Below, piece after piece: positions 22,417-41,206 of a stretch of DNA of 64,000 nt (positions are counted from its first letter, which is position 1; every line of letters starts with the position of its first letter). Under the pieces are notes generated by a model that was not told where the DNA came from, made no database searches, and saw nothing but the letters and a program-made list of their open reading frames with translations. The position numbers were made by a program, and so were the translations under genes. Source of the DNA: Haematococcus lacustris. Lineage: Eukaryota > Chlorophyta > Chlorophyceae > Chlamydomonadales > Haematococcaceae. The DNA lies in contig JASKMD010000018.1 of assembly GCA_030144725.1 (NCBI GenBank), forward strand, positions 3,614,026 through 3,678,025, in the 5' to 3' direction.

Positions 22417-23060
22417 CGTTCTCCTGAGACGCCCTTTACTCTTCTGGGTGCGGTGAGAGGCGGACGATGCTGGGCCGTTGCTGGCACATCCGCCTCGCCA
22501 GCACGCATGCACATCCTAGTGCATTGACGGCATGCACATCCTAGTGCATTGACGGCAATGTCGCAGCTCAACAGTTGACTAAGCGCTCTCGCACAATCGC
22601 CAAATCCGCGAGGCGCAGCATGGACCATGCGATACACTTTCCTGTCAGTGGGCATGGTGCATTGTCGCAGAGTTCCGGGTCATCATGGCTGGAAGAGTTC
22701 CTTCAAGGCTGAGCAGGATTACTGCCCTCTGCTGCCTGATCCCCGTCTTACTCCATCCCCTAAACACGGGCAACGGTGCACGTGGTCACGGTCAACTCAA
22801 TGGAAGACAAGCTGGCTGGCCATCACGCCTGAGCCCGGTGTTTGCCACACCCTGGCCCATAAGCAAGGGCGACATACCAGCAACGCATCACTTCACGCGA
22901 GCCCAGAGGTTGATGCCGTAGTAGAACTTGATGCGCACATGGAGGGTGTGCGATGGTATGGTGTCTATGCTATCGAGAGTATGGTATGGATAAGCGACTA
23001 AGCATCATTGTATGAAACGGCAAACCAGCTGAGCAGGAGTTCTAGTCAGGGTTGTGGCTG
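22417..23060. other. upstream region of the spastin-like gene
   Basis: This presumably contains the spastin promoter. A 25-bp direct repeat (CATGCACATCCTAGTGCATT type) occurs twice at 22508-22556. No other gene is recognised before the (CCCG)n array. Confidence 0.5.
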
Positions 23061-24537
23061 CGCCCGCCCGCCCGCCCGCCCGCCCGCCCGCCCGCCCGCC
23101 CGCCCGCCCGCCCGCCCGCCCGCCCGCCCCGCCCGCCCGCCCGCCCGCCCGCCCGCCCGCCCGCCCGCCCGCCCGCCCGCCCGCCCGCCCGCCCGCCCGC
23201 CCGCCCGCCCGCCCGCCCGCCCGCCCGCCCGCCCGCCCGCCCGCCCGCCCGCCCGCCCGCCCGCCCGCCCGCCCGCCCGCCCGCCCGCCCGCCCGCCCGC
23301 CCGCCCGCCCGCCCGCCCGCCCGCCCGCCCGCCCGCCCGCCCGCCCGCCCGCCCGCCCGCCCGCCCGCCCGCCCGCCCGCCCGCCCGCCCGCCCGCCCCG
23401 CCCGCCCGCCCGCCCGCCCGCCCGCCCGCCCGCCCGCCCGCCCGCCCGCCCGCCCGCCCGCCCGCCCGCCCGCCCGCCCGCCCGCCCGCCCGCCCGCCCG
23501 CCCGCCCGCCCGCCCGCCCGCCCGCCCGCCCGCCCGCCCCGCCCGCCCGCCCGCCCGCCCGCCCGCCCGCCCGCCCGCCCGCCCGCCCGCCCGCCCGCCC
23601 GCCCGCCCGCCCGCCCCGCCCGCCCGCCCGCCCGCCCGCCCGCCCGCCCGCCCGCCCGCCCGCCCGCCCGCCCGCCCGCCCGCCCGCCCGCCCGCCCGCC
23701 CGCCCGCCCGCCCGCCCGCCCGCCCGCCCCGCCCGCCCGCCCGCCCGCCCCGCCCGCCCGCCCGCCCGCCCGCCCGCCCCGCCCGCCCGCCCGCCCGCCC
23801 GCCCGCCCGCCCGCCCGCCCGCCCGCCCGCCCGCCCGCCCGCCCGCCCGCCCGCCCGCCCGCCCGCCCGCCCGCCCGCCCCGCCCGCCCGCCCGCCCGCC
23901 CGCCCGCCCGCCCGCCCGCCCGCCCGCCCGCCCGCCCGCCCGCCCGCCCGCCCGCCCGCCCGCCCGCCCGCCCGCCCGCCCGCCCGCCCGCCCGCCCGCC
24001 CGCCCGCCCGCCCGCCCGCCCGCCCGCCCGCCCGCCCGCCCCGCCCGCCCGCCCGCCCGCCCGCCCGCCCGCCCGCCCGCCCGCCCGCCCGCCCGCCCGC
24101 CCGCCCGCCCGCCCGCCCGCCCGCCCGCCCGCCCGCCCGCCCCGCCCGCCCGCCCGCCCGCCCGCCCGCCCGCCCGCCCGCCCGCCCGCCCGCCCGCCCG
24201 CCCGCCCGCCCGCCCGCCCGCCCGCCCGCCCGCCCGCCCGCCCGCCCGCCCGCCCGCCCGCCCGCCCGCCCGCCCGCCCGCCCGCCCGCCCGCCCGCCCG
24301 CCCGCCCGCCCGCCCGCCCGCCCGCCCGCCCGCCCGCCCGCCCGCCCGCCCGCCCGCCCGCCCGCCCGCCCGCCCGCCCGCCCGCCCGCCCGCCCGCCCG
24401 CCCGCCCGCCCGCCCGCCCGCCCGCCCGCCCGCCCGCCCGCCCGCCCGCCCGCCCGCCCGCCCGCCCGCCCGCCCGCCCGCCCGCCCGCCCGCCCGCCCG
24501 CCCGCCCGCCCGCCCGCCCGCCCGCCCGCCCGCCCGG
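23061..24537. repeat. (CCCG)n tetranucleotide array, 1.48 kb
   Basis: An almost pure CCCG/CGGG array is punctuated by about 13 single extra C insertions (CCCCG) that shift the register. The unit length (4) gives a 12-base protein period (PARP or GGRA) in every frame, which explains several artefactual ORFs of about 500 codons on both strands. It is strongly GC-skewed. The G-rich minus strand could fold into G-quadruplexes (inference). Confidence 0.98.
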
Positions 24538-24724
24538 GTTCTAGTGCATGGTTTCCGAACACATGACCTCAAATAAAACCAAAGGGTGGACGAGGCGGGG
24601 AGGCAACCGGGTCAGGTAGGGTTCTGCAAACATAGCCACTGTCATCCTTATTTGGCAGTGTAGAGCAGGTGAGCGGCTTGTTGACCAGCGCCTAAACGCA
24701 CGAGTTGTGGGTTCCAGACAAGGC

Positions 24725-24990: not shown

Positions 24991-25362
24991 GCATTACACC
25001 CCATTGTGCAGTAGTGCACCACACCGAGTGGCACAATACATCACCTTAGCGATATCTCACCAACTAGGAATATTTTAAAATGTTCCTTCAAACTCCAATT
25101 CTTACAACCACGTCACAAGGTTACGTGCCAAATCTCAGGCCGCGATCTCAAAAACGATGTTACGCAGTAAGGTTTCTAATTTGAACATCTTTAATGTTCA
25201 AGGCCCCGTGCCACTTCATTCCAGTTCCATTGTGAAAGCCGAGCACATAGCCGTGCAGCTCTTTATAACACCTCTCCACTGTGCCTTTCATTGTCTCCTT
25301 ATGCCTACTAGGTGCCAAGATATCACATGTTTTAGTACCCTACCTCCAAAAATCCAGTTTTG
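24991..25362. other. no gene recognised
   Basis: AT-richer spacer between U2 copy 2 and the gypsy 5' LTR. No similarity or target duplication matching the far side of the element was found. Confidence 0.5.
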
Positions 25363-25773
25363 TGTCACAACACATGGCGTGACTAGACACATTGTGTGAT
25401 GAGGGGTTCTGCCCCATGACATGGACCTTAGCCTAAACTGAGCATTTGAGGTGTTGAGTGTGGCCGACTGCCCTTTGGGGGTTTCCTAAGTTGCGATCTG
25501 GGTTGTGATCTGAGCCAAGCAGAGACGTGTCTTGCTGACTCAGTGCATGGGGAAATGCTTGGACTGTGCCGGACTTTAGTATTTGAGCCTTGTTGTGTTG
25601 CTGCCTTGGCAGCTTGAGATACCTCACGTCACCCGCATTGTGTCAGCGGCAGAGGCACTCCCCAAGCCCCAGTGTAACAAGGGAACCGTGTGGAATCAGC
25701 CCACGTCTTTCCTGTCTGCTCAGCTCCCGGCGCACTCAACCCGGGCCGGCTCGGGCGGCGAAACCCCAGACTA
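25363..25773 (+). repeat. 5' LTR of the gypsy element
   Basis: 411 bp. It is nearly identical to 34379-34789; the differences I see are G/A in TGTGATGAGG and a T/G in the CCCTTTGGGGG run. Confidence 0.92.
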
Positions 25774-25800: not shown

Positions 25801-26487
25801 ATGAGCTCAATGTCCGTTGACGGATCTTCCTATGCAGCTGACGCGGCCGGTTCGGTGAACGGCCCCACTATCGGAAGCCGTTTCAGTCCCTCTGCGCCGC
25901 CCGTCAAGCACCCTCTGCCATCGTCCGGCACGGTGCTGCTGCCCTATGAGCTGGACCGCTCGTTTCAGTGCGTCCAGAGCTCCCTCCAAGTCTTGTGCAA
26001 CGATGCGGAACTCTGGGGCGGCAGTGCGCTCCAGCTCGTCCTCCGCAAGCTGCCTAGCCGCGCATCTGCGGCTTTTTCCGACGGCTTTGTCAAGCCCTCT
26101 GTTGTCCAGGAGTACCAGCGTCGATACGAGGAGCTTCCCAGCGACCAGGCCTGGGACGCGGACTACTGCATCGCCATGTTCCTTGACATCGTGCGGGACG
26201 ACCTCTCGGACCCCGTGCTACTGAAGCAGCACGTCCAGGGTGTGCAGTTGGGCGACGTAGGTGATAGCGGCCGCACCGAGGCCCCGCGCTCGCTGAAGGT
26301 GCGCATGGCACCTCAATTGGTGCGCATGGCTGAGGAGGGTCACCTCAGCCGCCTCTGTGCTGTCAACCTGTTTTTGCATGCCCTTATGCCCCACCCTCGT
26401 CACGTGCTCCACAGCCAGGGCCAGCACCTGGTGCAGCGCAGCAAGGTGACCTATGCACGGCTCCCCTCACTCTCAAGACTCGGTTGA
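25801..26487 (+). CDS. gypsy ORF1: capsid part of Gag
   Basis: 228 codons from the first ATG after the LTR (ATGAGCTCAATG) to TGA. The protein has a Ser/Ala/Pro-rich start, then a helical region typical of a retrotransposon capsid (LPYELDRSFQCVQSSLQVL, YQRRYEELPSDQAWDADYCI, MAPQLVRMAEEGHLSRLCAV). It would assemble the particle. There is no zinc knuckle: that lies in ORF2, which begins in the +1 frame and overlaps ORF1 by 35 bases. Either Gag is completed by a +1 ribosomal frameshift, or a one-base indel has split the frame in this copy. Capsid identity is inferred from position and helical character. Confidence 0.75.
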   Translation: MSSMSVDGSSYAADAAGSVNGPTIGSRFSPSAPPVKHPLPSSGTVLLPYELDRSFQCVQSSLQVLCNDAELWGGSALQLVLRKLPSRASAAFSDGFVKPSVVQEYQRRYEELPSDQAWDADYCIAMFLDIVRDDLSDPVLLKQHVQGVQLGDVGDSGRTEAPRSLKVRMAPQLVRMAEEGHLSRLCAVNLFLHALMPHPRHVLHSQGQHLVQRSKVTYARLPSLSRLG

Positions 26488-29400
26488 GCTTGCCCTTGGC
26501 CGCGCTGAAGCTGCCGCAACCCAGGTGTATGAGGAGCTCATTGGCATGCTGCAGCTGGAGCAGGCAGCTGGGAAGCCGCTCAACGCACCTGCGGGCGTCA
26601 ACGCCGCTGAGCTGTTGGGACAAGTAAAGGGAGGTAACCCCACGGCTGTCAAGGCAGCCCAACGCCTAGTCAAGCAGCTTGGCAGCGCCCTCACCGCCCA
26701 GGGTGCACCTCCGGCACCAACCAGGCCTCCTGCACCTCACCTGTCCTGGTGTGAGGGTCACCAGCGCTGGACTAGTCACAGCACTGCTGAATGTCACCTG
26801 CTCAAGCAACAGCAGCCGCAGGCGGCGCCCGCTCCCACTCCAGCCCACCCCCACCCCCACGGTGCAGCCGCCAGCTCGCAGCCTATTGACCCAGCCCTGT
26901 ATGAGCAGTTCAGGTTGTTCATGGCTTCCCGCTCACCTGCTGCTGCCCCGCCACTGCGCGCTCACACCGTCGTGCAGTCAAGAAGCGGGCCATCCCGGGG
27001 TCGCCCACGCTGTGATCACTGCGGCAAAGACGGGCACACCGAGGAGCGGTGCTTCAGCAAGCATCCTGAACTGCGCCCAGCCCAATGGGGTCAGCCCGGA
27101 CCTGCGCACTCCCTCGCTGCCGTGCCTGGTGTGGGTGAGGGTGAGGATGAGGATGAGGACGCAGCCCTACACAGCCTCACCAACATGCCCATCACCAGCG
27201 TCAGCACCGCCTTTGATGCCATGCACCACGCCATTGCCCTAGCTGCTGCTGCTGAGCGCCCACTCAGCTTCGCGCCCGGCGGTGCCACCACCCATGCCCT
27301 GCCCGCCTCACGTGCTGCACCCCGTGACACCGGTAGCAGCAGCAGCAGCAGCAGCAAGGTACCCATGCAGCTAGAGGGTCAGGCTGACATCACGGACACT
27401 GTGCGCACCCTAGTGCAACAGGTGTCCACTTTGCAGCAAAACTTGCTTGCCATGGAGGCCCACATGGCTCAGCTGAGAGCAGAGCGACCTCTCGCCCAGG
27501 CTATTGCTTCTGCCACCGGCACCGCAGGCCAGCAGCCCATCCCTGTGCCACAGTCTGCTGCCCTTGCCGCTGCTGGCCCGGCCCAGCCGGCCTCCAGCCT
27601 GCGTGCCCTACCCTTTGCTGCCAACCCCAGCGTGTGCGCAGGCCTCAGTGTCCTAGACCGGCACGGCACTCCCCATGCCCTACCCGGTGTCATGCTCGAC
27701 TCTGGCTCAGGCGCACAGCTGATCACCGCCAGCCTGCCCTATGACTTGCTGGTTGGCAACGAGATCCTCTTCCGCCACGGCATCCAGCTAGATCTGGTGG
27801 GTCGTTTGCTCAGCTACGCTCCTCGGCTGTTCAGCCACAACGAGGCCCAGCCACGCCATGCTCTGCCCATGTACTTTGAGCCACCAGCCGAGTGGTCCAG
27901 CGGCCAGCTGCTGAGTCAGAGCAGCGTGATTGCCACGTCCTTGGTGGCCAGCCCTGACCCCGTTACCAATGCCCACCCAACCCCGCCGGCTCAGCTGTCT
28001 GCCTTGCAGCCCTACACGCAGGATGCTGTGTCAGAATCCGGTTCCAGTGGTTATGCAGAGTCATCAGCAGCAGCGCCTGTGACTGAGGCGGGTACCGGCC
28101 CCTCCAACTGGGCGGCAATCCCTGCTGCTTACCCCGCGTCCCTAATGAGCTATGCCCTGCCATATGCTGCCAACCTCAGCGTGGCCACAGGCCTCAGCAT
28201 CATAGACCGCCACGGTCACCCCCACGCCGTACCAGGTGTCGTCCTCGACTCCGGTTCTGGGGCACACCTCATTGCCCCATGGCTGGTTGAGCGGCTGCAG
28301 CTGCAGGCGGACCACATGCGGCTGCGTATCTTCCAGAGCGGAGGCACCGCCTTCCACGCCCACGGCGGAGTCATGGCTGAGGTGGGGCTCGCCCTAGGCA
28401 CACCCCATGCTGCCAGGTCCCGCCATCGCTTCCATGTGATGCCAGCAAACTCGCTGCCCTTCAGCCTGCTGCTTGGCACAGAAGTCCTTTACCAGCACGG
28501 CATCCAGCTTGACCTGACAGCCCGGCACCTCACTTATGCCCCCAGCCTTGCCAGCCACGGCCGGCAGCAGCCTCGCCATGCCCTGCCACTGCGCTTCAAT
28601 GCCAGAGACGCCTGGCCTGGCCTGAGCAGTATGGTTGAGACCTCTTTGGCAGCTCACCCTGAGCCTACTAGCCCTGAGCCCCTTTGGGCATGCGTGACCA
28701 GCCCAGCGCACAGCGAGGGGGAGCACGGCAGCAGTGGTCACACCGGCGTGAGCTACCTGGGGGCTCCAGGGGCACAGTCAAGTGCGACCAGCGCCGCCCC
28801 TGGCTGCAGCCATGCCCCCAGCGTTGCGGAGGACACTCCCAGACCGGAAATCAGGGGTCTTGTCTGGGAACCTCGCAGCAAGCCCGGCCACGGCACGGAT
28901 AGACCACAGCTGCCAGCCCGTTCCCCTAAGCACCAAGCGCTGGGCCTAGGAGCTGCTCGCCGCCGCGCCCGGCAGCAGCTGCGCACCACGCCCCCGCCAA
29001 AAGGCACCAGCTGGGCTACCGCCGGCCACCAACTGCTCACCACCATCCGTAAGGGCTGCACTCTGCGCACCATCACAACCCTGCTGCTCATCCTTTGCGC
29101 CCTGTTGCCCACGCTGCATGCGTGCCCACCCAACGAGCTGCCAGCCGTGCCAGCCTTGCCCGATGCGTACTGCTCCGTCACCATTGAGCACACACTGCCA
29201 GGTGGCCGGCAGCACTTGCCTCCTGATGTCCGCTTCACCAAGCACGCAAAGGGCGTGCTGTTCGGCAACCATCCGGGCATGACCACAGATGAGCATGCCG
29301 CCCTGCAAGCACTGGTAGAGGCCCATGACAGCGCGTTCTCTTACAGCCTGTCTGATCTGCCCGGGTACCACGGGCCCCGCCCCCCCTTCAGCATCCCCCT

Positions 29401-32400
29401 CACCTCTGACCAGCCTGTGCGCACCCCCCCTCGCCGCTACAGCCCTCTCGAGCGGCAAGTCTGCATTGACAAGACCGCTGAGCTGCAGGCCGCGGGCATC
29501 GTGTCCCCGGTGGAAGGGCCTTGCAGCTACGCTGCCGCCCCGGTCCTACCTGCCAAGAAGGATGCCCATGGCAACTGGACCGAGAAACGGTTTGCCATTG
29601 ACTACCGCCAGCTCAACGCAGCCACCAAGCCCGACATCTACGGCTTGCCCCGCCCTGATGAGATGTTCAGTGAGTTGGGTGACAGCTGCTACTTCAGCAA
29701 GCTAGACATGCGTAGCGGGTTCTTCCAGCTCATCATTGCACCAGCTGACCGCATCAAAACAGCATTCTGGTGTGGCAACAAGCTATACCACTTCAACCGC
29801 ATGCCTTTTGGCCTACGCAATGCACCAGCTGAGTATCAGCGGGTCATGGATCGCTGTATTGCTGATGCTGGCTTGACCCACTGCTGCAAGGCGTATATTG
29901 ATGACTTGCTCATCCACAGCACCAGCGCAGAGCAACACTTGGCAGACGTGGCGGCGGCGCTGCGCATGCTCCAGGCCAATGGGCTGAAGGCGCACCCTGA
30001 CAAGAGCCTATTCGGCGCTGATGTGGTAGAGTACCTGGGGCATAACGTTAGCAGCCATGGCCTGTCTCCCACTGAGGCTAAGGTGGCAGCTGTCACAGCC
30101 CTGCCTACTCCCACTTGCTTGCATGACCTGCGCCAAATCATGGGCTTCATCAACTACTATCGATGCTACGTGCCTGACTTCTCTGCCATTGCAGCCCCCA
30201 TCACCCGCCTCACTTCCAAAGGGGTGTCATGGGTGTGGGGGGAGGAGCAGCAGCAGGCGTTTGCCACCCTTAAAGCAGCCATCTGCACCCCTGGCCTGGT
30301 CCTCCGCCGTGCTGACCCTGACCGCCCTTTTACCCTGCACACTGACTGGTCCACTGCTGGCTGTGGCGCTGTCCTAGGCCAGACTGACGACGCCGGGCGC
30401 GAGTACATGGTGGCATGCATCAGCCGCAGCAATAACAAGCACGAGCGCAACTACAGCTCCTACCAGGGTGAAATGTTGTGCGCTGTGTGGGCCATCAAGA
30501 CCTTGCGCCCCTACCTGCATGGTGTTGCCTTCAGGCTGGTCACTGATCACCAGCCCCTTACATGGCTGATGACTAACCCAAACCTCACAGGGCACCACGC
30601 CCGCTGGGCTCTGAGCCTTCAGGACTACACCTTCACCATCGAGCACCGCCCTGGCAACAAGCATCAGAATGCGGACGTACTGTCCCGCTGGCCACTGGCC
30701 ACCACGGCTGATGGCTCGGGCGCACAGCTGGACCCTGACCCCGCCGTGGCGCTAGCCTGCTTCCCTTGCGTCGCCACGACCCAAGCTGAGTCAATGGTGT
30801 GGTCATGCGCATCCTACTGGCCATTTGACTCCCACTATGCCACCCACCCAGCTGACCTCCTGTGGGGCAACCTTGGGGGCCACCTGGATGCTTCCTTCCA
30901 CCCATCTGCCCCTCCCTTGCCAGAGCCCACAGAGCCTGCCTTACACGATGCGGCCCTTACCATGTTGCAGCAAGCTGCAACCACCCTTGCCCACCTCCAG
31001 CCTGCTGTCACCTTCATGGGTGCGGCTGCGGGCCCAAGGGACATGCATGGAGTAGCCCCACCCACACGCCTTGACACAACCCTCATCCCCACCACCTTCT
31101 TCCCAGCTGCTGCCAATGGCATTGTCCTCCTGGAGCTGTTTGGGGGTTTGTGTGCGGGGCTAGACATGTGCCTCCGCAATGGCGTGACAGTTTGCCGCTA
31201 CCTCTACTGTGACACAAACCCTGCTGCCCAGCGCGTCGCCCAGCACCGCCTGTCAGCCCTCTCCACTCAGTACCCCACCCTGCTGCCTGCTTCAGCATAC
31301 ACCACAGCCTTCACCTCCCTGCCATCTGATGTGCGTACCATCACCACTTCCCACCTCGTTGGCGCTGGGGCTATGGCTGGCCAGCAGTGGCTGGTTGTTG
31401 CTGGCTGGGAGTGCCAGGACCTCTCATCTGCTGGCACGCAGGCTGGCATGCATGGCCCACACTCTTCCACCCACCATGATTGTTTGCGCATCATTGGCTC
31501 CATGCAGCAGCTGCAGCCCTCCTGCCCACCAGGCTACATCCTTGAGAATGTTGCAGTCCAGCACAATTTCAGCAGCCCCGCCGTGGCAGCTCAACTGCAG
31601 CCACTGTGCCAGTTGTTTGGCGAACCCCTATGCTTTGATGCAGCCATTGTGGGGTCCTATGCCCACAGAGTGCGCAACTATTGGACCAACTTGTGTGACA
31701 CCGCTGCGGTGGCAGCTGTGCTGGCCAATGCTGACCGAGGGCATGCACAGGTGCAAGACATCCTGGACCCTGGCCGCCGTGCCCCGCTGGCCACCAGCTG
31801 GCCACCACCACCAGCCCTCCAGTGCGAGGTGGCCGGTCAGCCCCTGTGCGTGCTCCCCACCCTCGTTGCCACCCCACAATCCTACGCCTTCCGTAGCGCT
31901 GGACCTGGGCTCATGATCAACCCCGACGGCACCTGCAGCGAGCCCACCGTCCCTGAGCGTGAACGGGCCTTGGGCTATGGCACCGGCGCCACTGCGGCAC
32001 CGGGAGTCAGCCTGCCGCAGCGCTTTGCTATCCTTGGCCGCTGCATGGACGCCTTTGCCATGCAGTCACTGCTGGCCACCTCCCTTGCCCTCTATCGTTC
32101 ACCTCCCAGCCCCAGCCTCACCTCCTGTGCCTGCGTGGCGGGGGGGAGTGTTGGGCCCCAACCTCTTAATCGCCACCCAGCCCCAGTTGGCAGCCTCGCT
32201 TCACCTACCTGCCTCGAGGCGGCAGTGGTGGCTGCATCCGAGGAGGGATCAGACATCCACACCGATGCGGCTGCCCTACACTACCTACGCAACACTGCTC
32301 ACCTACCAGGGTTGACAGCCACCGAGATGCGCCGTGTGGTTCGCCGGGCCAAGGCTTACCGGTATGAGGCAGACCAGCTGCTCCGGGTCATGGCAGATGG

Positions 32401-34126
32401 CAGCGTCAAGGTTGTGCCAGCCCCAGCCACTCGTGATCAGCTTGTGCTCAACATGCATGGCAGCAATGGGCACTTTGGGGTGCGACGCACTACTGCCATG
32501 CTCTTGCACAACCACTGGTGGGCAGGCATCCATGCCGATGTAGCACGCATCCTCAAAGCCTGCCATGTGTGTGATAGAGCTAGGGCTAGCTTCAACCTTC
32601 GTGCTGCCCAGCTGTCACCTCTGCCAGTGCAAGGACTTTTCTATCGCTGGGGCGTGGACCTGGCTGGCCCGCTTCCCCGCACCCACCGCGGCAATGAGTA
32701 CCTGATGGTGTGCATCGAGCACCTAACCAAGCATGTGGAGCTAGTGCCCATCCCTGACAAGCTGGCCACCACCACAGCCTACAACTTTCATCACCAAGTG
32801 CTGGGCCGCTTTGGGGCTAGCGCTGAGGTCCTCACCGACGGGGGCCGTGAATTCCAAGGGGAGTTTGCTGATCTCTTGCAGCGCCATTTGATTGACCACC
32901 GTGTCACCTCCCCCCACCACCCCCAGGCAGATGGGCTGGCCGAGCGGGCGGTGCAGACTTTCAAGGATGCCCTCCGCAAACACATTGCTGTCAGTGGTGA
33001 CCCTGCTGCCTGGGATGAGGCCCTGCCCGCCATTGCCCTGGGTTACCGTGTCTCACCACAGGAAGCCACTAAGTGCAGTCCTTACTCTTTGCTGTATGGC
33101 CGTGCACCCGTGCTCCCCCCTGCAGTCGTCCAGCGCATGGCGCGCCCGGTCAACCTTGATGACCCAGTGGTGGCTGCCCACGACCTCCTGGAGCGCTCTG
33201 CCGTGTTGAGCCGTGAAACAGCTGCCGCCATGGGCAATATCCGCATCGCTCAGCACCGTGACACCCTTCGCTACGCCACCACCCACAGCGGCAGCTACAA
33301 GCCAGCTGCCCGTCAGCTGCACCCTGGCTCCTTTGTGTGGACACAACGCCCACAGGCCAACACCTTGCAGCTCGGTGCCCGCCCAGAAATCTACAGGGTG
33401 GTGTCAGTGGGTGCTAATGGGGTAGCTCGTCTCATGGGCAAATGCGGAAGGGTTATGGCTGAGAATGTTTGCAACCTTGCACCCTGCCACCTGCCCGACA
33501 TTGACCCAACCATCGACCACACTCTGGCACGCCCCACTGCTGATTTTCCCTGCTCAATCTGCAAATCTCCCACCGACGCTGACCGCATGTTGCTATGCGA
33601 TGGCTGTGGCAGCGGATATCACATGTTCTGCCTTGCTCCCAAACTGACCTCTGTACCTGAGGGTATATGGCTGTGCGCAGACTGCACCAGCCGCGGCACC
33701 ACCGTCCTCGAGGTGCAGCGCCGTACCCAGGCCGTGGCCACACAGCCTGCCGCGCCCCCCCTAAAGGAGGTCTTCACCACCAAGCCGGGGCGGGACCGAG
33801 CCGCTGCCGCCCAACGGCTACACGGGCGCGTGGTGCGCCATGCTGGCACAGGACTGTGGGGCGTGCTACGCTTCAAGGGGCAACAGTTCCACCCACACTT
33901 CTTTGCTGTGGACTGGGTGGACGGCACCCTCACTGACGCCATGAGCCCCACCATACTGCGCAACCGCCAGTGGCTGCAACCTGAGGGCACGACACTACCC
34001 GCTGCACCCACACATGCACCCGCTGTTCAACCTAGCCGCCGTCGGTCTACACGGTTGGGCCCGAGTGGAGACAATGCGGTAACTATTAGCACTGGGCTGA
34101 TCAGCATGGCATCACTGTGGGCCTGA
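26453..34126 (+). CDS. gypsy ORF2 polyprotein: NC-PR-PR-RT-RH-DNMT-IN-PHD
   Basis: 2,557 codons, uninterrupted, ending TGA. In order: helical Gag remainder; zinc knuckle CDHCGKDGHTEERC (187-200); a first aspartic-protease active site LDSGSGAQLI (Asp416) in a shortened domain; a second, complete protease LDSGSGAHLI (Asp599); reverse transcriptase with FSKLDMRSGF and YIDDLL (1148-1153); RNase H with HTDWS, YQGEMLCAVWA and TDHQPL. Then a DNMT3-like methyltransferase (about 1550-1890): LLELFGGLCAGLDM, GWECQDLSSAG (Cys1654), YILENVA (1696-1702), HRVRNYWTNL and ERERALGYG. Integrase has an HHCC region, Asp2069, Asp2129 (TDGGREF) and Glu2164 (DGLAER), and is followed by a PHD finger (about 2367-2412). 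The C-terminal segment (GLWGVLRFKGQQFHPHFFAV) is unassigned. All key catalytic residues of the polymerase and integrase are present. In methyltransferase motif IV, Pro of PCQ/PCN is Glu. Confidence 0.93.
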   Translation: MHGSPHSQDSVELALGRAEAAATQVYEELIGMLQLEQAAGKPLNAPAGVNAAELLGQVKGGNPTAVKAAQRLVKQLGSALTAQGAPPAPTRPPAPHLSWCEGHQRWTSHSTAECHLLKQQQPQAAPAPTPAHPHPHGAAASSQPIDPALYEQFRLFMASRSPAAAPPLRAHTVVQSRSGPSRGRPRCDHCGKDGHTEERCFSKHPELRPAQWGQPGPAHSLAAVPGVGEGEDEDEDAALHSLTNMPITSVSTAFDAMHHAIALAAAAERPLSFAPGGATTHALPASRAAPRDTGSSSSSSSKVPMQLEGQADITDTVRTLVQQVSTLQQNLLAMEAHMAQLRAERPLAQAIASATGTAGQQPIPVPQSAALAAAGPAQPASSLRALPFAANPSVCAGLSVLDRHGTPHALPGVMLDSGSGAQLITASLPYDLLVGNEILFRHGIQLDLVGRLLSYAPRLFSHNEAQPRHALPMYFEPPAEWSSGQLLSQSSVIATSLVASPDPVTNAHPTPPAQLSALQPYTQDAVSESGSSGYAESSAAAPVTEAGTGPSNWAAIPAAYPASLMSYALPYAANLSVATGLSIIDRHGHPHAVPGVVLDSGSGAHLIAPWLVERLQLQADHMRLRIFQSGGTAFHAHGGVMAEVGLALGTPHAARSRHRFHVMPANSLPFSLLLGTEVLYQHGIQLDLTARHLTYAPSLASHGRQQPRHALPLRFNARDAWPGLSSMVETSLAAHPEPTSPEPLWACVTSPAHSEGEHGSSGHTGVSYLGAPGAQSSATSAAPGCSHAPSVAEDTPRPEIRGLVWEPRSKPGHGTDRPQLPARSPKHQALGLGAARRRARQQLRTTPPPKGTSWATAGHQLLTTIRKGCTLRTITTLLLILCALLPTLHACPPNELPAVPALPDAYCSVTIEHTLPGGRQHLPPDVRFTKHAKGVLFGNHPGMTTDEHAALQALVEAHDSAFSYSLSDLPGYHGPRPPFSIPLTSDQPVRTPPRRYSPLERQVCIDKTAELQAAGIVSPVEGPCSYAAAPVLPAKKDAHGNWTEKRFAIDYRQLNAATKPDIYGLPRPDEMFSELGDSCYFSKLDMRSGFFQLIIAPADRIKTAFWCGNKLYHFNRMPFGLRNAPAEYQRVMDRCIADAGLTHCCKAYIDDLLIHSTSAEQHLADVAAALRMLQANGLKAHPDKSLFGADVVEYLGHNVSSHGLSPTEAKVAAVTALPTPTCLHDLRQIMGFINYYRCYVPDFSAIAAPITRLTSKGVSWVWGEEQQQAFATLKAAICTPGLVLRRADPDRPFTLHTDWSTAGCGAVLGQTDDAGREYMVACISRSNNKHERNYSSYQGEMLCAVWAIKTLRPYLHGVAFRLVTDHQPLTWLMTNPNLTGHHARWALSLQDYTFTIEHRPGNKHQNADVLSRWPLATTADGSGAQLDPDPAVALACFPCVATTQAESMVWSCASYWPFDSHYATHPADLLWGNLGGHLDASFHPSAPPLPEPTEPALHDAALTMLQQAATTLAHLQPAVTFMGAAAGPRDMHGVAPPTRLDTTLIPTTFFPAAANGIVLLELFGGLCAGLDMCLRNGVTVCRYLYCDTNPAAQRVAQHRLSALSTQYPTLLPASAYTTAFTSLPSDVRTITTSHLVGAGAMAGQQWLVVAGWECQDLSSAGTQAGMHGPHSSTHHDCLRIIGSMQQLQPSCPPGYILENVAVQHNFSSPAVAAQLQPLCQLFGEPLCFDAAIVGSYAHRVRNYWTNLCDTAAVAAVLANADRGHAQVQDILDPGRRAPLATSWPPPPALQCEVAGQPLCVLPTLVATPQSYAFRSAGPGLMINPDGTCSEPTVPERERALGYGTGATAAPGVSLPQRFAILGRCMDAFAMQSLLATSLALYRSPPSPSLTSCACVAGGSVGPQPLNRHPAPVGSLASPTCLEAAVVAASEEGSDIHTDAAALHYLRNTAHLPGLTATEMRRVVRRAKAYRYEADQLLRVMADGSVKVVPAPATRDQLVLNMHGSNGHFGVRRTTAMLLHNHWWAGIHADVARILKACHVCDRARASFNLRAAQLSPLPVQGLFYRWGVDLAGPLPRTHRGNEYLMVCIEHLTKHVELVPIPDKLATTTAYNFHHQVLGRFGASAEVLTDGGREFQGEFADLLQRHLIDHRVTSPHHPQADGLAERAVQTFKDALRKHIAVSGDPAAWDEALPAIALGYRVSPQEATKCSPYSLLYGRAPVLPPAVVQRMARPVNLDDPVVAAHDLLERSAVLSRETAAAMGNIRIAQHRDTLRYATTHSGSYKPAARQLHPGSFVWTQRPQANTLQLGARPEIYRVVSVGANGVARLMGKCGRVMAENVCNLAPCHLPDIDPTIDHTLARPTADFPCSICKSPTDADRMLLCDGCGSGYHMFCLAPKLTSVPEGIWLCADCTSRGTTVLEVQRRTQAVATQPAAPPLKEVFTTKPGRDRAAAAQRLHGRVVRHAGTGLWGVLRFKGQQFHPHFFAVDWVDGTLTDAMSPTILRNRQWLQPEGTTLPAAPTHAPAVQPSRRRSTRLGPSGDNAVTISTGLISMASLWA

Positions 34127-34337: not shown

Positions 34338-34376
34338 ACTCTGTTACAGGTCACATCGCACGCTTACAACGCGACA
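34338..34376 (+). repeat. 39-bp direct repeat, copy before the 3' LTR
   Basis: ACTCTGTTACAGGTCACATC... ending AACGCGACA; it lies between the polypurine tract and the 3' LTR. An identical copy follows the LTR at 34789-34827. Confidence 0.9.
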
Positions 34377-34378
34377 GC

Positions 34379-34789
34379 TGTCACAACACATGGCGTGACT
34401 AGACACATTGTGTAATGAGGGGTTCTGCCCCATGACATGGACCTTAGCCTAAACTGAGCATTTGAGGTGTTGAGTGTGGCCGACTGCCCTTGGGGGGTTT
34501 CCTAAGTTGCGATCTGGGTTGTGATCTGAGCCAAGCAGAGACGTGTCTTGCTGACTCAGTGCATGGGGAAATGCTTGGACTGTGCCGGACTTTAGTATTT
34601 GAGCCTTGTTGTGTTGCTGCCTTGGCAGCTTGAGATACCTCACGTCACCCGCATTGTGTCAGCGGCAGAGGCACTCCCCAAGCCCCAGTGTAACAAGGGA
34701 ACCGTGTGGAATCAGCCCACGTCTTTCCTGTCTGCTCAGCTCCCGGCGCACTCAACCCGGGCCGGCTCGGGCGGCGAAACCCCAGACTA
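34379..34789 (+). repeat. 3' LTR of the gypsy element
   Basis: 411 bp, same boundaries as the 5' LTR (TGTCACAACA...CCCAGACTA). It is flanked on both sides by copies of a 39-bp sequence (34338-34376 and 34789-34827). Confidence 0.92.
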
Positions 34790-34827
34790 CTCTGTTACAG
34801 GTCACATCGCACGCTTACAACGCGACA
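34789..34827 (+). repeat. 39-bp direct repeat, copy after the 3' LTR
   Basis: Identical to 34338-34376. It is not present next to the 5' LTR. Confidence 0.9.
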
Positions 34828-35196
34828 TTTGCATTGAAAGTCCTCTAATGTGAACATGCCGTCGCCCCTATCCACCTACACAAAGACTGATACCAAAACT
34901 TTTGTTGATGTTGCTACCCGTCCCACTGCCCCTAGCAAGGCCAGCAGCTGGTCAAAAACATTACCCAGTAGCAGTCCATAGGCACTTGAAGTTGCACATG
35001 CACATGCAAGCATGCTACTTGCAAGATCCCTTCCTGGCCTTTGCTGCCTTCTTGGCTGCCTCAGCAACCACCTCATGCTTGAAATAGAACCTATCCTCTG
35101 CTGGGAAACGTAAGCTGGGCTGCGGTTGGGCTGATCGTTGAGCTGCAACACGCAACATTGCGTCATCAACGGCCAAGGGGATCCAGGGTTTGAATG
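34828..35196. other. no gene recognised
   Basis: Spacer after the gypsy element. Short open frames resemble nothing known. Confidence 0.5.
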
Positions 35197-35358: not shown

Positions 35359-36092
35359 AAGAGCGTACGTTTCACGTCAAGTCAGCTCAAACAAGCCGTG
35401 AGCAGCCCATCGACCCGCATTTTCATAGCAAGCTCATACACAAGACAAGTGAGTTGATGAAATGTTTACGGTGCGCCCTTGAGAGGCGGTGATGAACACT
35501 ATGTATCGCTGATGCTAAATACATGCATTGATGCAAGAAGGTGGCATTGATGCAAGAAGGTGATGCATTGATGCAAGAAGGTGGCGAAGATGTTGATACG
35601 GGTGTGGGTTGGGGTGGGCTAGGGGAAAGGGGGGGGGGGAGTTATGACTGAAAGTGGTCTTGCCGACCCCGGGCAGGGTCGTCATGGAGGGTCATTTTAC
35701 ATTCTCTCCACAATGTTGATTCTGATCTGATACAAACTTGCCATGTCATGTCTTACAATCATTACTTTGTGCTTAGTGGTACACCACACCAAAAAGGCAG
35801 AAGCACTGGAAGCAATACATGTCTCAAGCTCAACTACCTTGCAACACCACTACAGAAGACATGTATCGCTGATGCTAAGTACATGCATTGATGCAAGAAG
35901 GTGGCAACACCACACAACACAACAACACCTCAACAACACACCACCACAACAACAACACATTGACTCATGCCTCACACACCACCTATGCTATGTGCACAAC
36001 AAGCAAGGACCGGCTGCACCTCCTTGCTTTAGCTAACACTCACTACGGGACTGCTAAGCACTTTGCCTTGCTGCCTATGCCCAATGCCCCAT

Positions 36093-36417
36093 GGCTGGGC
36101 TGGGCTGGGCTGGGCTGGGCTGGGCTGGGCTGGGCTGGGCTGGGCTGGGCTGGGCTGGGCTGGGCTGGGCTGGGCTGGGCTGGGCTGGGCTGGGCTGGGC
36201 TGGGCTGGGCTGGGCTGGGCTGGGCTGGGCTGGGCTGGGCTGGGCTGGGCTGGGCTGGGCTGGGCTGGGCTGGGCTGGGCTGGGCTGGGCTGGGCTGGGC
36301 TGGGCTGGGCTGGGCTGGGCTGGGCTGGGCTGGGCTGGGCTGGGCTGGGCTGGGCTGGGCTGGGCTGGGCTGGGCTGGGCTGGGCTGGGCTGGGCTGGGC
36401 TGGGCTGGGCTGGGCTG
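36093..36417. repeat. (GGGCT)n pentanucleotide array
   Basis: About 65 uninterrupted GGGCT units. Gly-Leu-Gly-Trp-Ala and Ser-Pro-Ala-Gln-Pro frames over it are artefacts. Confidence 0.97.
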
Positions 36418-37414
36418 TACCCTAACAACACACAACACAACACAACAACGTCCAGCTCCAGACTGCGCGCTCCAGGCTGCCCGCTCCAAGCTCCAGCGTG
36501 TCTCGTGGGATGGGGGGGAGGGGAGGGGGGGAAGTAGGTGGGTAGAAGACTCGGAAGTGGTGGTGGGACGGGGTATGGAAGGGAGAAGGGGGCAAGGGAC
36601 AGGAGTGTGAACATCAAGCCTGCAGCCAGCAAGAGGCATCCTTGTGATTAGGCTGGGCATTGGGTGCCACTCATGTCCAGGGGCTGGCCACTCACAGTTT
36701 TGCTCCGTGTCATGCCTTGCTGACTCCTTGCTACCTCCTTGTTGGCTGCTGCTCTACGCCGCTGCTGCCTTGCTTGCAACCACCAAGCCATGCTACACCT
36801 GTCATGCTCCAGCTGTCTGTATTATCAGTCAGCTAAGGCTTAGCAAGCAGATGAACAAGATTAACACCCCAGCTGCATGTGCACTCACCGGAAGTCCAAG
36901 CTGACGCTCCAAGCGCCTCCTACCTGCTGCTCTTGGCTACTGCTCTTGCGATGACGACCAGCTTATTCATCGAGCTGATTCGAATAACTGGCGATGATTG
37001 GCGATAACTGGCGCGCGTAGTGAAGCCTTTGACCTGGTTCTACACCTGAACGACAGTGCTTTCCTTCCCTCCAAGGTTTGCGTGGTGGTATGGGCAAACT
37101 TGGGCAGACCGTCCGACCCTAGCGCATTGGGGTCATCGGGGCTAGGCGCAGCCATTGCGCTGGTCGGCGGTGGAAGCGGATGCAAGATTCGAGGACCTAT
37201 AAAAGCTATAAAAGTGCTCAAGCCATATACAAGCCATATACAAGCCATATAAACTATAAATATAATTATAGTCGGGCCGGTCGCTCCCTACTTGCCACCC
37301 TCCACGCTGGCTGCTGCTGCTGCTAGCATGTTATTCTTGCTTGGGGGGTACAGGCCAGTCTTCTCAAATGCCCAAATCCCAAATCCCAAATCAGGCCTGT
37401 TCAAATTATGTGCT

Positions 37415-39398: not shown

Positions 39399-39630
39399 AG
39401 TGACACTCTCCTTCGACGAGGCGCTTGACGTGGACCTCCCGTCCGGGGCTAGCACCCCGCGGAATTCGGTCTCATCATTCAGCCCGTCCAGCCTTGAGCT
39501 CAGCCCTTCGCCAAGTGGTGAAAATCAGCCCATTATCTCGGACACACTTCCGAGCGCGCACCCAGTAACCCAGCCCGCACAGCCGGAACAGCCTCACCTG
39601 CTTCTTACCTAAGCTTTTTCTTTAGTCTCC

Positions 39631-40299
39631 ATGGGTAACCGTGAGGCGCACCAAGCGCTGCCCGGGTGTGAGCGGTGCCAGTCTTTCAAGGCGTCAGCGG
39701 ACTACTACGCCGGGCTAGCAAGGGCACGAGGTGAGCAACTTGCTTAGCAGCTTGAGTACATAGAGCACCTCCTCAACATTGTGCGCAACCTTGCCGTAAC
39801 ACCCAGTGCACCTGTAGGCGGGGCTACACGCTACGTGGCACCACCGCCACCCCCACCGCCTCCACCTAGACGCTAGCCTGCACCACAGCTAGCACCCCAG
39901 CCCCACCCAGCCTATCAGGGGCACGCTCCACCACCTACCCTTTCCCACTCCGCCCAACACAACAGGGACGGTTACCAGCAGCGCCAGCGTCGCCGCGAGC
40001 AATAGGTACAGCCCATAGCGCAGTTCACGGCACAACCTGCTTCCATGGAGACCATCATAGCAGCGTTCAACGCACTCGGCGCTACCATGGACAGGATAGT
40101 GCGTCAGCAGGAGCAACAGCACGCCTCTCAGGCAGAGCCACAGGTAACACCAGGTTTAGTCAAGCTGACAGACGTACAACCGTTTGACGGCAAGGGTAGT
40201 GAATCCACATGGTTGCTTCATATTGAGGAGGCGTTCAAGCTGACATATTTTTGTTCATCCGTCAAGCCTGGTGTCAGCTTGAACACCTCCTCAATATGA
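39631..40299 (+). pseudogene. gag-like 5' fragment in the left palindrome arm
   Basis: From ATGGGTAACC the frame reads MGNREAHQALPGCERCQSFK, a coiled segment, a run of nine prolines, a Gln/Arg-rich stretch and METIIAAFNALGATMDRIV. It then reads VQPFDGKGSESTWLLHIEEA, which resembles the N-terminal capsid of Ty3-type Gag ('FxG...TWLxxxE..F'). It is interrupted by three in-frame stops, all TAG (39745-39747, 39874-39876 and 40003-40005), and ends at the palindrome centre where the reading turns into the inverted copy. The right arm carries the same frame on the minus strand with the same three TAGs. Confidence 0.65.
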
Positions 40300-40886
40300 A
40301 ACAACCAGGTGGATACACTACCCTTGCCGTCAAACGGTTGTACGCCTGTCAGCTTGACTAAACCTGGTGTTACCTGTGGCTCTGCCTGATAGGCGTGTTG
40401 TTGCTCCTGCTGACGCACTATCCTGTCCATGGTAGCGCCGAGTGCGTTGAACGCTGCTATGATGGTCTCCATGGAAGCAGGTTGTGCCGTGAACTGCGCT
40501 ATGGGCTGTACCTATTGCTTGCGGCGACGCTGGCGCTGCTGGTAACCGTCCCTGTTGTGTTGGGCGGAGTGGGAGGGGGTAGGTGGTGGAGCGTGCCCCT
40601 GGCAGGCTGGGTGGGGCTGGGGTGCTGGCTGTGGTGCAGGCTAGCGTCTAGGTGGAGGCGGTGGGGGTGGCGGTGGTGCCACGTAGCGTGTAGCCCCGCC
40701 TACAGGTGCACTGGGTGTTACGGCAAGGTTGCGCACAATGTTGAGGAGGTGCTCTATGTACTCAAGTTGCTAAGCAAGTTGCTCACCTCGTGCCCTTGCT
40801 AGCCCGGCGTAGTAGTCCGCTGACGCCTTGAAAGACTGGCACCGCTCACACATGTGCAGCGCTTGGTGTGCCTTACGGTTACCCAT
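40218..40886 (-). pseudogene. gag-like 5' fragment in the right pal. arm
   Basis: Mirror copy of 39631-40299 with small differences (for example CERC preceded by LHM instead of LPG, and HAYQAEP instead of HASQAEP). It keeps the same three TAG codons and runs through the spacer as FKLTPGLTDEQKY before meeting the other arm. No protease or polymerase follows. Confidence 0.65.
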
Positions 40887-41206
40887 GGAGACTAAAGGAA
40901 AAGCTTAGGTAAGAAGCAGGTGAGGTTGTTCCGGCTGCGCGGGCTGGGCTACTAGGTGCGCGCTTGGAAGTGTGTCCGAGATAATGGCCTGATTTTCACC
41001 ACTTGGCGAAGGGCTGAGCTCAAGGCTGGACGGGCTGAATGATGAGACCGAATTCCGCGGGGTGCTAGCCCCGGACGGGAGGTCCACGTCAAGCGCCTCG
41101 TCGAAGGAGAGTGTCACTCCGATGAACGTTAACGGGGAAACCAAATGCAGCAGTGGTAAAGCGTAGGCCCGGAAAAACGTAAATGCAAGCACGAATGGGT
41201 CTAAGG

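Follow-up and report, generated by a model that had tools for sequence, protein, structure and literature searches.

A gypsy-type retrotransposon with split repeats carries a predicted DNMT3-like methyltransferase that has degenerated in one multiplied subfamily

The window analysed here, by which we mean the whole stretch of 64,000 nucleotides, contains what appears to be a recently inserted member of a gypsy-type retrotransposon family that has split repeats and several subfamilies, and whose polyprotein includes a predicted DNMT3-like C5-cytosine methyltransferase. Our preferred explanation, to which as a whole we assign a probability of about 0.6, is that a DNMT3-like enzyme was captured long ago and has been retained in Pol between RNase H and integrase, where it would serve to methylate new copies of the element. 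In this model the enzyme would be carried in the particle together with reverse transcriptase (RT) and integrase, and would methylate the double-stranded cDNA or the freshly inserted copy at CG, after which a host DNMT1-type enzyme would maintain the mark. New copies would be born with a host-like mark and quiet, which would protect the cDNA or limit damage to the host. The purpose of such self-methylation may be to hide the element or to spare its host, as a preliminary description of this DNA had proposed.

The element is flanked by a 4-bp target-site duplication (TTTG at 25359-25362 and again at 34828-34831) and its repeats follow the order A1-coding-B1-A2-B2 with termini TGTC...GACA. On the forward strand, as for all features of the element below, the left terminal repeat A1 begins with TGTC and occupies 25363-25773 (411 bp), A2 occupies 34379-34789 (411 bp), and the 39-bp repeat B1 (34338-34376) is identical to B2 (34789-34827), which forms the right end (...GACA) and has one base in common with A2. 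The recent insertion proposed in the preliminary description is supported by the two mismatches in 411 positions between A1 and A2. A simple full-length LTR at each end was rejected because the repeats are split A-coding-B-A-B. Target duplications of 4 bp (TTTG, AGGC, GTAA, CCCT and ACGC) were present in all five copies with both outer ends visible among nine stretches read. In 9/9 stretches read, B1 and A2 are separated by GC (34377-34378 in the window), the centre of the palindrome GACAGCTGTC. This B1-GC-A2 palindrome (34338-34389) resembles the end-to-end junction of a circular form, from which the GC would be lost on integration. A pair of B repeats (39-41 bp) was visible in 8 of 23 long stretches, the others being shortened, broken or without a pair, and no second B was found in L024 or L031-L033 within the stretch examined, even with up to five mismatches. 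Since split repeats replace simple LTRs, we call the element gypsy-type by its enzymes only. It combines a DIRS-like repeat order with integrase-type integration. Unusual repeats are also a feature of REM1 of Chlamydomonas reinhardtii. Like the window element, whose genome is probably green-algal, REM1 is a gypsy-type element of unusual structure from a green alga, but its integrase, with a chromodomain, is described as truncated and in reverse frame, and the accessible part of its description mentions no methyltransferase (PMC2774666). Elsewhere in the window there are a G+C-rich low-complexity repeat that is open in several frames (23008-24576), a long array of a 10-bp unit (36023-36472) and a long hairpin (39399-41118) with inverted arms of 847 bp that are 97% complementary and 26 bp apart.

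ORF1, which by its position probably encodes Gag, has 228 codons from its ATG (25801-26487; open from 25678, stop at 26485-26487) and overlaps ORF2 in a different frame. The uninterrupted 2,557-codon frame that was said to carry a methyltransferase between RNase H and integrase is real, and ORF2 (26453-34126) encodes a Gag-Pol polyprotein of 2,557 aa. It includes CDHCGKDGHTEERC (27011-27052), a motif read from the sequence that we take to be a CCHC zinc knuckle. Pfam matches place RT (RVT_1, PF00078, E 6e-25) at aa 1042-1199 (29576-30049) and RNase H (PF17917, E 2e-32) at aa 1288-1392 (30314-30628), followed by the integrase zinc-binding H2C2 domain (PF17921, E 2e-12) at aa 1992-2045 (32426-32587) and the integrase core rve (PF00665, E 2.5e-8) at aa 2065-2157 (32645-32923). 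This order of RT-RNase H and then rve integrase in Pol bears out the gypsy-type assignment made earlier. Between them lies the predicted DNMT3-like methyltransferase domain (aa 1545-1905; 31085-32167), with Cys1654 in WECQ. A DIRS element was considered and rejected: ORF2 contains H2C2 and rve, no phage-integrase domain was found at E 1, and ORF1 has no Pfam match at E 0.1. C-terminal to the integrase is a PHD finger (aa 2367-2411; 33551-33685; PF00628, E 3e-11), which is also found by Pfam in L051, a copy with a degenerate enzyme. In many gypsy elements the position behind the integrase is occupied by a chromodomain, and the PHD finger may add chromatin reading to integration. ORF2 also contains two tandem protease-like units (27605-28672), namely a first, shortened one with LDSGSG (27605-27967), which matches the second at 35%, and a second, full aspartic protease-like unit (28130-28672), for which Asp_protease_2 scores E 0.03 in the window copy and gag-asp_proteas 1.8e-6 in copy L051. 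Because the first unit is longer in the sister copies L016 and L017 (55% to the second unit), its shortness in the window copy points to an in-frame deletion.

The domain displays, in unpermuted order, what we take to be methyltransferase motifs I, IV, VI and VIII and the C-terminal motifs. Its identification as a methyltransferase, made at first from such motifs, is upheld by a significant match in a profile search, in which the closest solved structures are DNMT3 (the first 29 of 42 matches). In a structure comparison of the predicted fold, the first 33 rows are DNMT3, followed by 4dkj (presumably M.MpeI) at 23.6 and M.HhaI at 22.7. It is because of these profile and fold results that we assign the domain as a predicted DNMT3-like C5-cytosine methyltransferase, and not because of the DLS and RxRxxWxN features, which the preliminary description had held to be typical of DNMT3/DRM. 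Those features proved not to be specific: RxRx[YF]WxN is present in 31/31 viral-contig methyltransferases read (31 of 80 fetched). Among pattern-matching stretches of the viral contigs, neither the 14 compared with the window's domain nor the 5 compared with its RT encode a relative. A DRM type was rejected, as DRM2 reached only E 0.65 in the profile search. The catalytic domain of human DNMT3A (PDB 8te3, 2qrv) is 24% identical to that of the window but does not sit in a retrotransposon Pol, and Glu here replaces its Pro before the catalytic Cys and Gln its Asn after it. The replacement of Pro by Glu in motif IV had been observed in the window copy and taken to raise a question of activity. 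It is confirmed as a family trait rather than a mutation of that copy, because the residue is Glu in 33 of the 34 copies read, Gly in one and Pro in none; and since Pro-Cys is absent from motif IV, we name the domain DNMT3-like and not a DNMT3. The C5 methyltransferase of Croceibacter phage P2559Y has the same motif order, RxRxYWTN and about 25% identity to the domain (E 8e-8), but is free-standing, has PCQ and is not accompanied by an RT; its own closest PDB match is DNMT3A (E 2e-25).

These relationships bear on the substrate. The enzyme might methylate RNA, such as the genomic RNA or the tRNA primer, or an RNA-DNA hybrid, instead of cDNA, as would suit a domain that adjoins RNase H in Pol and belongs to the same class as DNMT2 and DNMT6, which the accessible text of a 2025 survey associates with RNA (PMC12344493). 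However, the nearest solved relatives of the domain are the DNA enzymes DNMT3A, 3B and 3C, and no DNMT2 chain appeared at E 10 in the profile search of solved structures. We regard an RNA substrate as quite improbable.

The domain is certainly multi-copy and not confined to the window: its own genome (307.9 Mb, 597 contigs) contains at least 94 matching stretches, some of them pieces of one copy, with 94 of 188 candidates scored. These 94 stretches, together with a conserved position and the fold prediction, led us to reject chance similarity or a one-off insertion. The longer matching stretches group at about 100, 96, 70-74, 52-54 and 47-50% identity. Wherever RT/RNase H and integrase survive in 20 further long copies (L016-L035), the domain is found between them; RT was not found upstream of the domain in L029. 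Our alignment took in 34 copies of the 94, the frameshifted L043 being left out. Among the 28 of these outside the 47-50% group, WECQD is found in 27 (L017 has WGCQD) and EN[VAT]A likewise in 27 (L029 has EDAA), while motif VIII and both C-terminal blocks are present in all 28; judged by these motifs, the predicted enzyme is intact in most lineages examined. Of the 2,599 first-look RT candidates in the genome, 100 were scored. Among 101 RT matches, a scored methyltransferase match is no more than 1.8 kb downstream in 67 and not in 34, a number that includes fragments and possibly unscored methyltransferases. L146, read from among the 34, has a degenerate domain that is frameshifted and followed by a run of N. 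An identical RT score of 611.3 bits recurs at several places, and at some of these the frame is about 1,845 aa long (1,841-1,852 aa). Because this score is common to several places and L146 is frameshifted inside its degenerate methyltransferase, truncated copies of this sort may be spread in trans. In L026 (8031-9308 as oriented), a second gypsy-type RT, 40% identical, adjoins a truncated copy of the element.

Selection was estimated as dN/dS from Nei-Gojobori counts on chosen pairs. Between subfamilies the values for the domain are 0.11-0.18 (8 pairs), and in two wider pairs 0.21 (window and L036, dS 2.2) and 0.13 (L024 and L039, dS 3.6); in the eight pairs RT has 0.04-0.10 and the integrase core 0.04-0.09. 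Purifying selection on the domain, a point on which the preliminary description had suggested a test, is therefore evident between subfamilies (0.11-0.21); the synonymous excess between the window copy and L024 has p 1e-42. Within the 53% clade the domain gave 0.08-0.34 in 21/21 pairs. It is less constrained than RT and integrase core in most pairs, by about 1.2 to 4 times, and within the L024 group its values in four pairs of near-identical copies are 0.42, 0.93, 1.40 and 3.85, on few differences, such that purifying selection is undetectable there. The dS values are uneven across the domains of one pair, L018 and L022 (methyltransferase 0.94, integrase core 0.11). This is a sign that domains have probably been exchanged between subfamilies, in which case dN/dS would mix histories.

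The enzyme has degenerated in the 47-50% group (6 copies read, L044-L049). Motif IV there is WECPHL, WECPHH or WEYPHL, the Cys being lost in two copies, and LVNTT or LVSTT stands in place of ENV; motif IV, ENV, HRxRN, the C-terminal ERE.A.GY and the GRCMDA block are each found in 0/6. In the full copy L051, protease, RT, RNase H, integrase and PHD finger still match in Pfam, and the DNA_methylase match is gone (E up to 0.1). Open frames in this subfamily reach 2,828 aa, and six of its matches have one identical score, 221.9 bits, which suggests that these copies are near-identical and recently multiplied. In a tree of 22 copies, drawn from this genome only, the degenerate copies group together as a single clade (100/100) that joins the 53% clade. 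Their domain has dN/dS 0.25-0.88 (15 pairs). RT gave 0.00-0.03 among three degenerate copies and 0.04-0.06 among three 53% copies. In the same degenerate pairs, amino-acid change is significantly more frequent in the domain than in RT (Fisher p 4e-9, 4e-5 and 1e-9, from rounded counts, in pairs that share history). Three chosen pairs also show significantly more of it in the degenerate domain than in the intact one (p 3e-4, 2e-3 and 9e-3).

It is against these data that a non-catalytic role has to be weighed, in which the domain would be a part of Pol (a spacer, a DNA clamp or a SAM-independent binding module) kept for folding or cleavage. Such a role would be compatible with a motif IV that lacks Pro in 34/34 copies, and with a degenerate clade that keeps a long open frame, has multiplied and, at a dN/dS of about 0.5, still falls below 1. 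It would not readily account for the way in which ECQ, ENV, RxR and the C-terminal blocks are retained jointly (27 or 28 of 28 copies) and lost jointly (6/6), nor for the fact that motif loss coincides with lower constraint on the domain while RT stays constrained. We consider this alternative unlikely. The simplest reading is that predicted catalysis was lost once, that constraint was lost with it and that spread continued without it. Because the degenerate subfamily multiplied, this suggests that the predicted methyltransferase activity is helpful to the element rather than indispensable.

The preferred model calls for a host enzyme that maintains the mark. A methyltransferase family search that scored 75/75 candidates yielded nine matches, all of them intron-split host-type exons, distributed over six places, of which C182 and C22 contain three each. 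Exons were read singly, so that a weak or short-exon host DNMT3 could escape this search, and the retrotransposon domains, whose scores are lower than those of its matches, are absent from its list. The exon at L061 is of DNMT1 type (E 7e-34 to DNMT1), and that at L060 is equally weak to DNMT3A, 4dkj and HhaI (E about 0.2). No host DNMT3 was placed among the two exon types read at these six places, by a search able to miss short-exon genes. L060-L063 represent two host-type methyltransferase genes with three places each (C22, C182), the second stretch of each being about 96% identical to the first. Published views on a host DNMT3 are contrary: a 2023 survey of green algal transcriptomes reports DNMT3 as absent (PMC9998398), but another paper describes DNMT3 as highly conserved in green plants (PMC10538959), each as far as its accessible text goes. 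The retrotransposon enzyme could conceivably act in trans, with the host genome or rival elements as its target, either as a weapon or as the general de novo methylase of a host without DNMT3. The transcriptome survey and the host-type exons, with DNMT1 and the unplaced L060 as the two types read, would agree with this. On the other hand, a host DNMT3 with a weak score would go unseen in an exon-by-exon search, and the L060 exon is no closer to HhaI than to DNMT3A, and we give action in trans little credence.

Returning to self-methylation, CpG depletion as its trace was not seen when 12 elements (CpG observed/expected 0.46-0.57) were compared with six stretches of host DNA from the window (0.38-0.85), and this lack of an element-specific depletion counts in favour of the RNA substrate considered above. 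In the domain itself, CpG observed/expected is lower in the degenerate clade (0.36-0.42, 6 copies) than in the intact 53% clade (0.47-0.50, 7 copies), which is the opposite of what self-methylation alone would give.

Among known systems the closest is KnitGypsy-Dnmt3 of the charophyte Klebsormidium nitens, described as a gypsy element with a DNMT3 inside its Pol frame, repeats of DIRS-like type and Ka/Ks < 0.2 (de Mendoza et al., 2018; PMC5890265). Set against the accessible text of that paper, the window element has the same Gypsy domains, a DNMT3-type domain in the Pol frame and, by the published description, the same A-coding-B-A-B DIRS-like order, and its domain is under comparable purifying selection (0.11-0.21 between subfamilies). 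It differs probably in its host, in the PHD finger after the integrase, which that text does not mention for KnitGypsy-Dnmt3, and in having, unlike the element described, one subfamily with a degenerate enzyme that still multiplied; there, the retrotransposon methyltransferases were reported with conserved enzymes. The window element therefore matches the charophyte kind in the testable features, and the contrast between kept and lost enzyme within one family is new relative to that text. SymbioDIRS-Dnmt3 and SymbioLINE-Dnmt of Symbiodinium are likewise retrotransposons with a cytosine methyltransferase, in the DIRS type a DNMT3 in Pol, but their integration uses a tyrosine recombinase or is that of LINEs, whereas the window element has an rve integrase with 4-bp target duplications. 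According to the same text, two retrotransposon DNMT3 domains (from SymbioDIRS-Dnmt3 copies) methylate CG in yeast, while the gypsy-borne enzyme gave no methylation there, a result that its authors termed inconclusive (PMC5890265). The 2025 survey, in its accessible part, cites retrotransposon DNMT3 for streptophytes and dinoflagellates, calls the LTR type Copia and describes chlorophyte-charophyte 'ChloroDNMTs', often with PWWP (PMC12344493). We recognised no chlorophyte case of such an element in the open literature, which is a weak negative given that figures, supplements and most subscription journals lay outside it.

Why a transposon should carry an enzyme that usually silences transposons was asked in 2018 and is unsettled in the literature covered. 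If the host is a chlorophyte, the present family would extend such elements to a lineage without DNMT3 in one transcriptome survey, as far as its accessible text goes (PMC9998398). We can offer only tentatively the further idea that a DNMT3-type de novo methylase survives in this lineage solely as the gene of a selfish element that marks its own new copies. One family here pairs a kept with a lost enzyme, the lost one under relaxed selection, and this allows methylation, expression and insertion sites to be compared between the two. If our reading is correct, sister subfamilies that both multiplied, one with and one without the enzyme, would constitute a natural experiment within a single genome, and the contrast between them, seen in long-read methylation data alone, could tell whether the effect of self-methylation is to hide the element, to spare the host or to slow the element's own spread.
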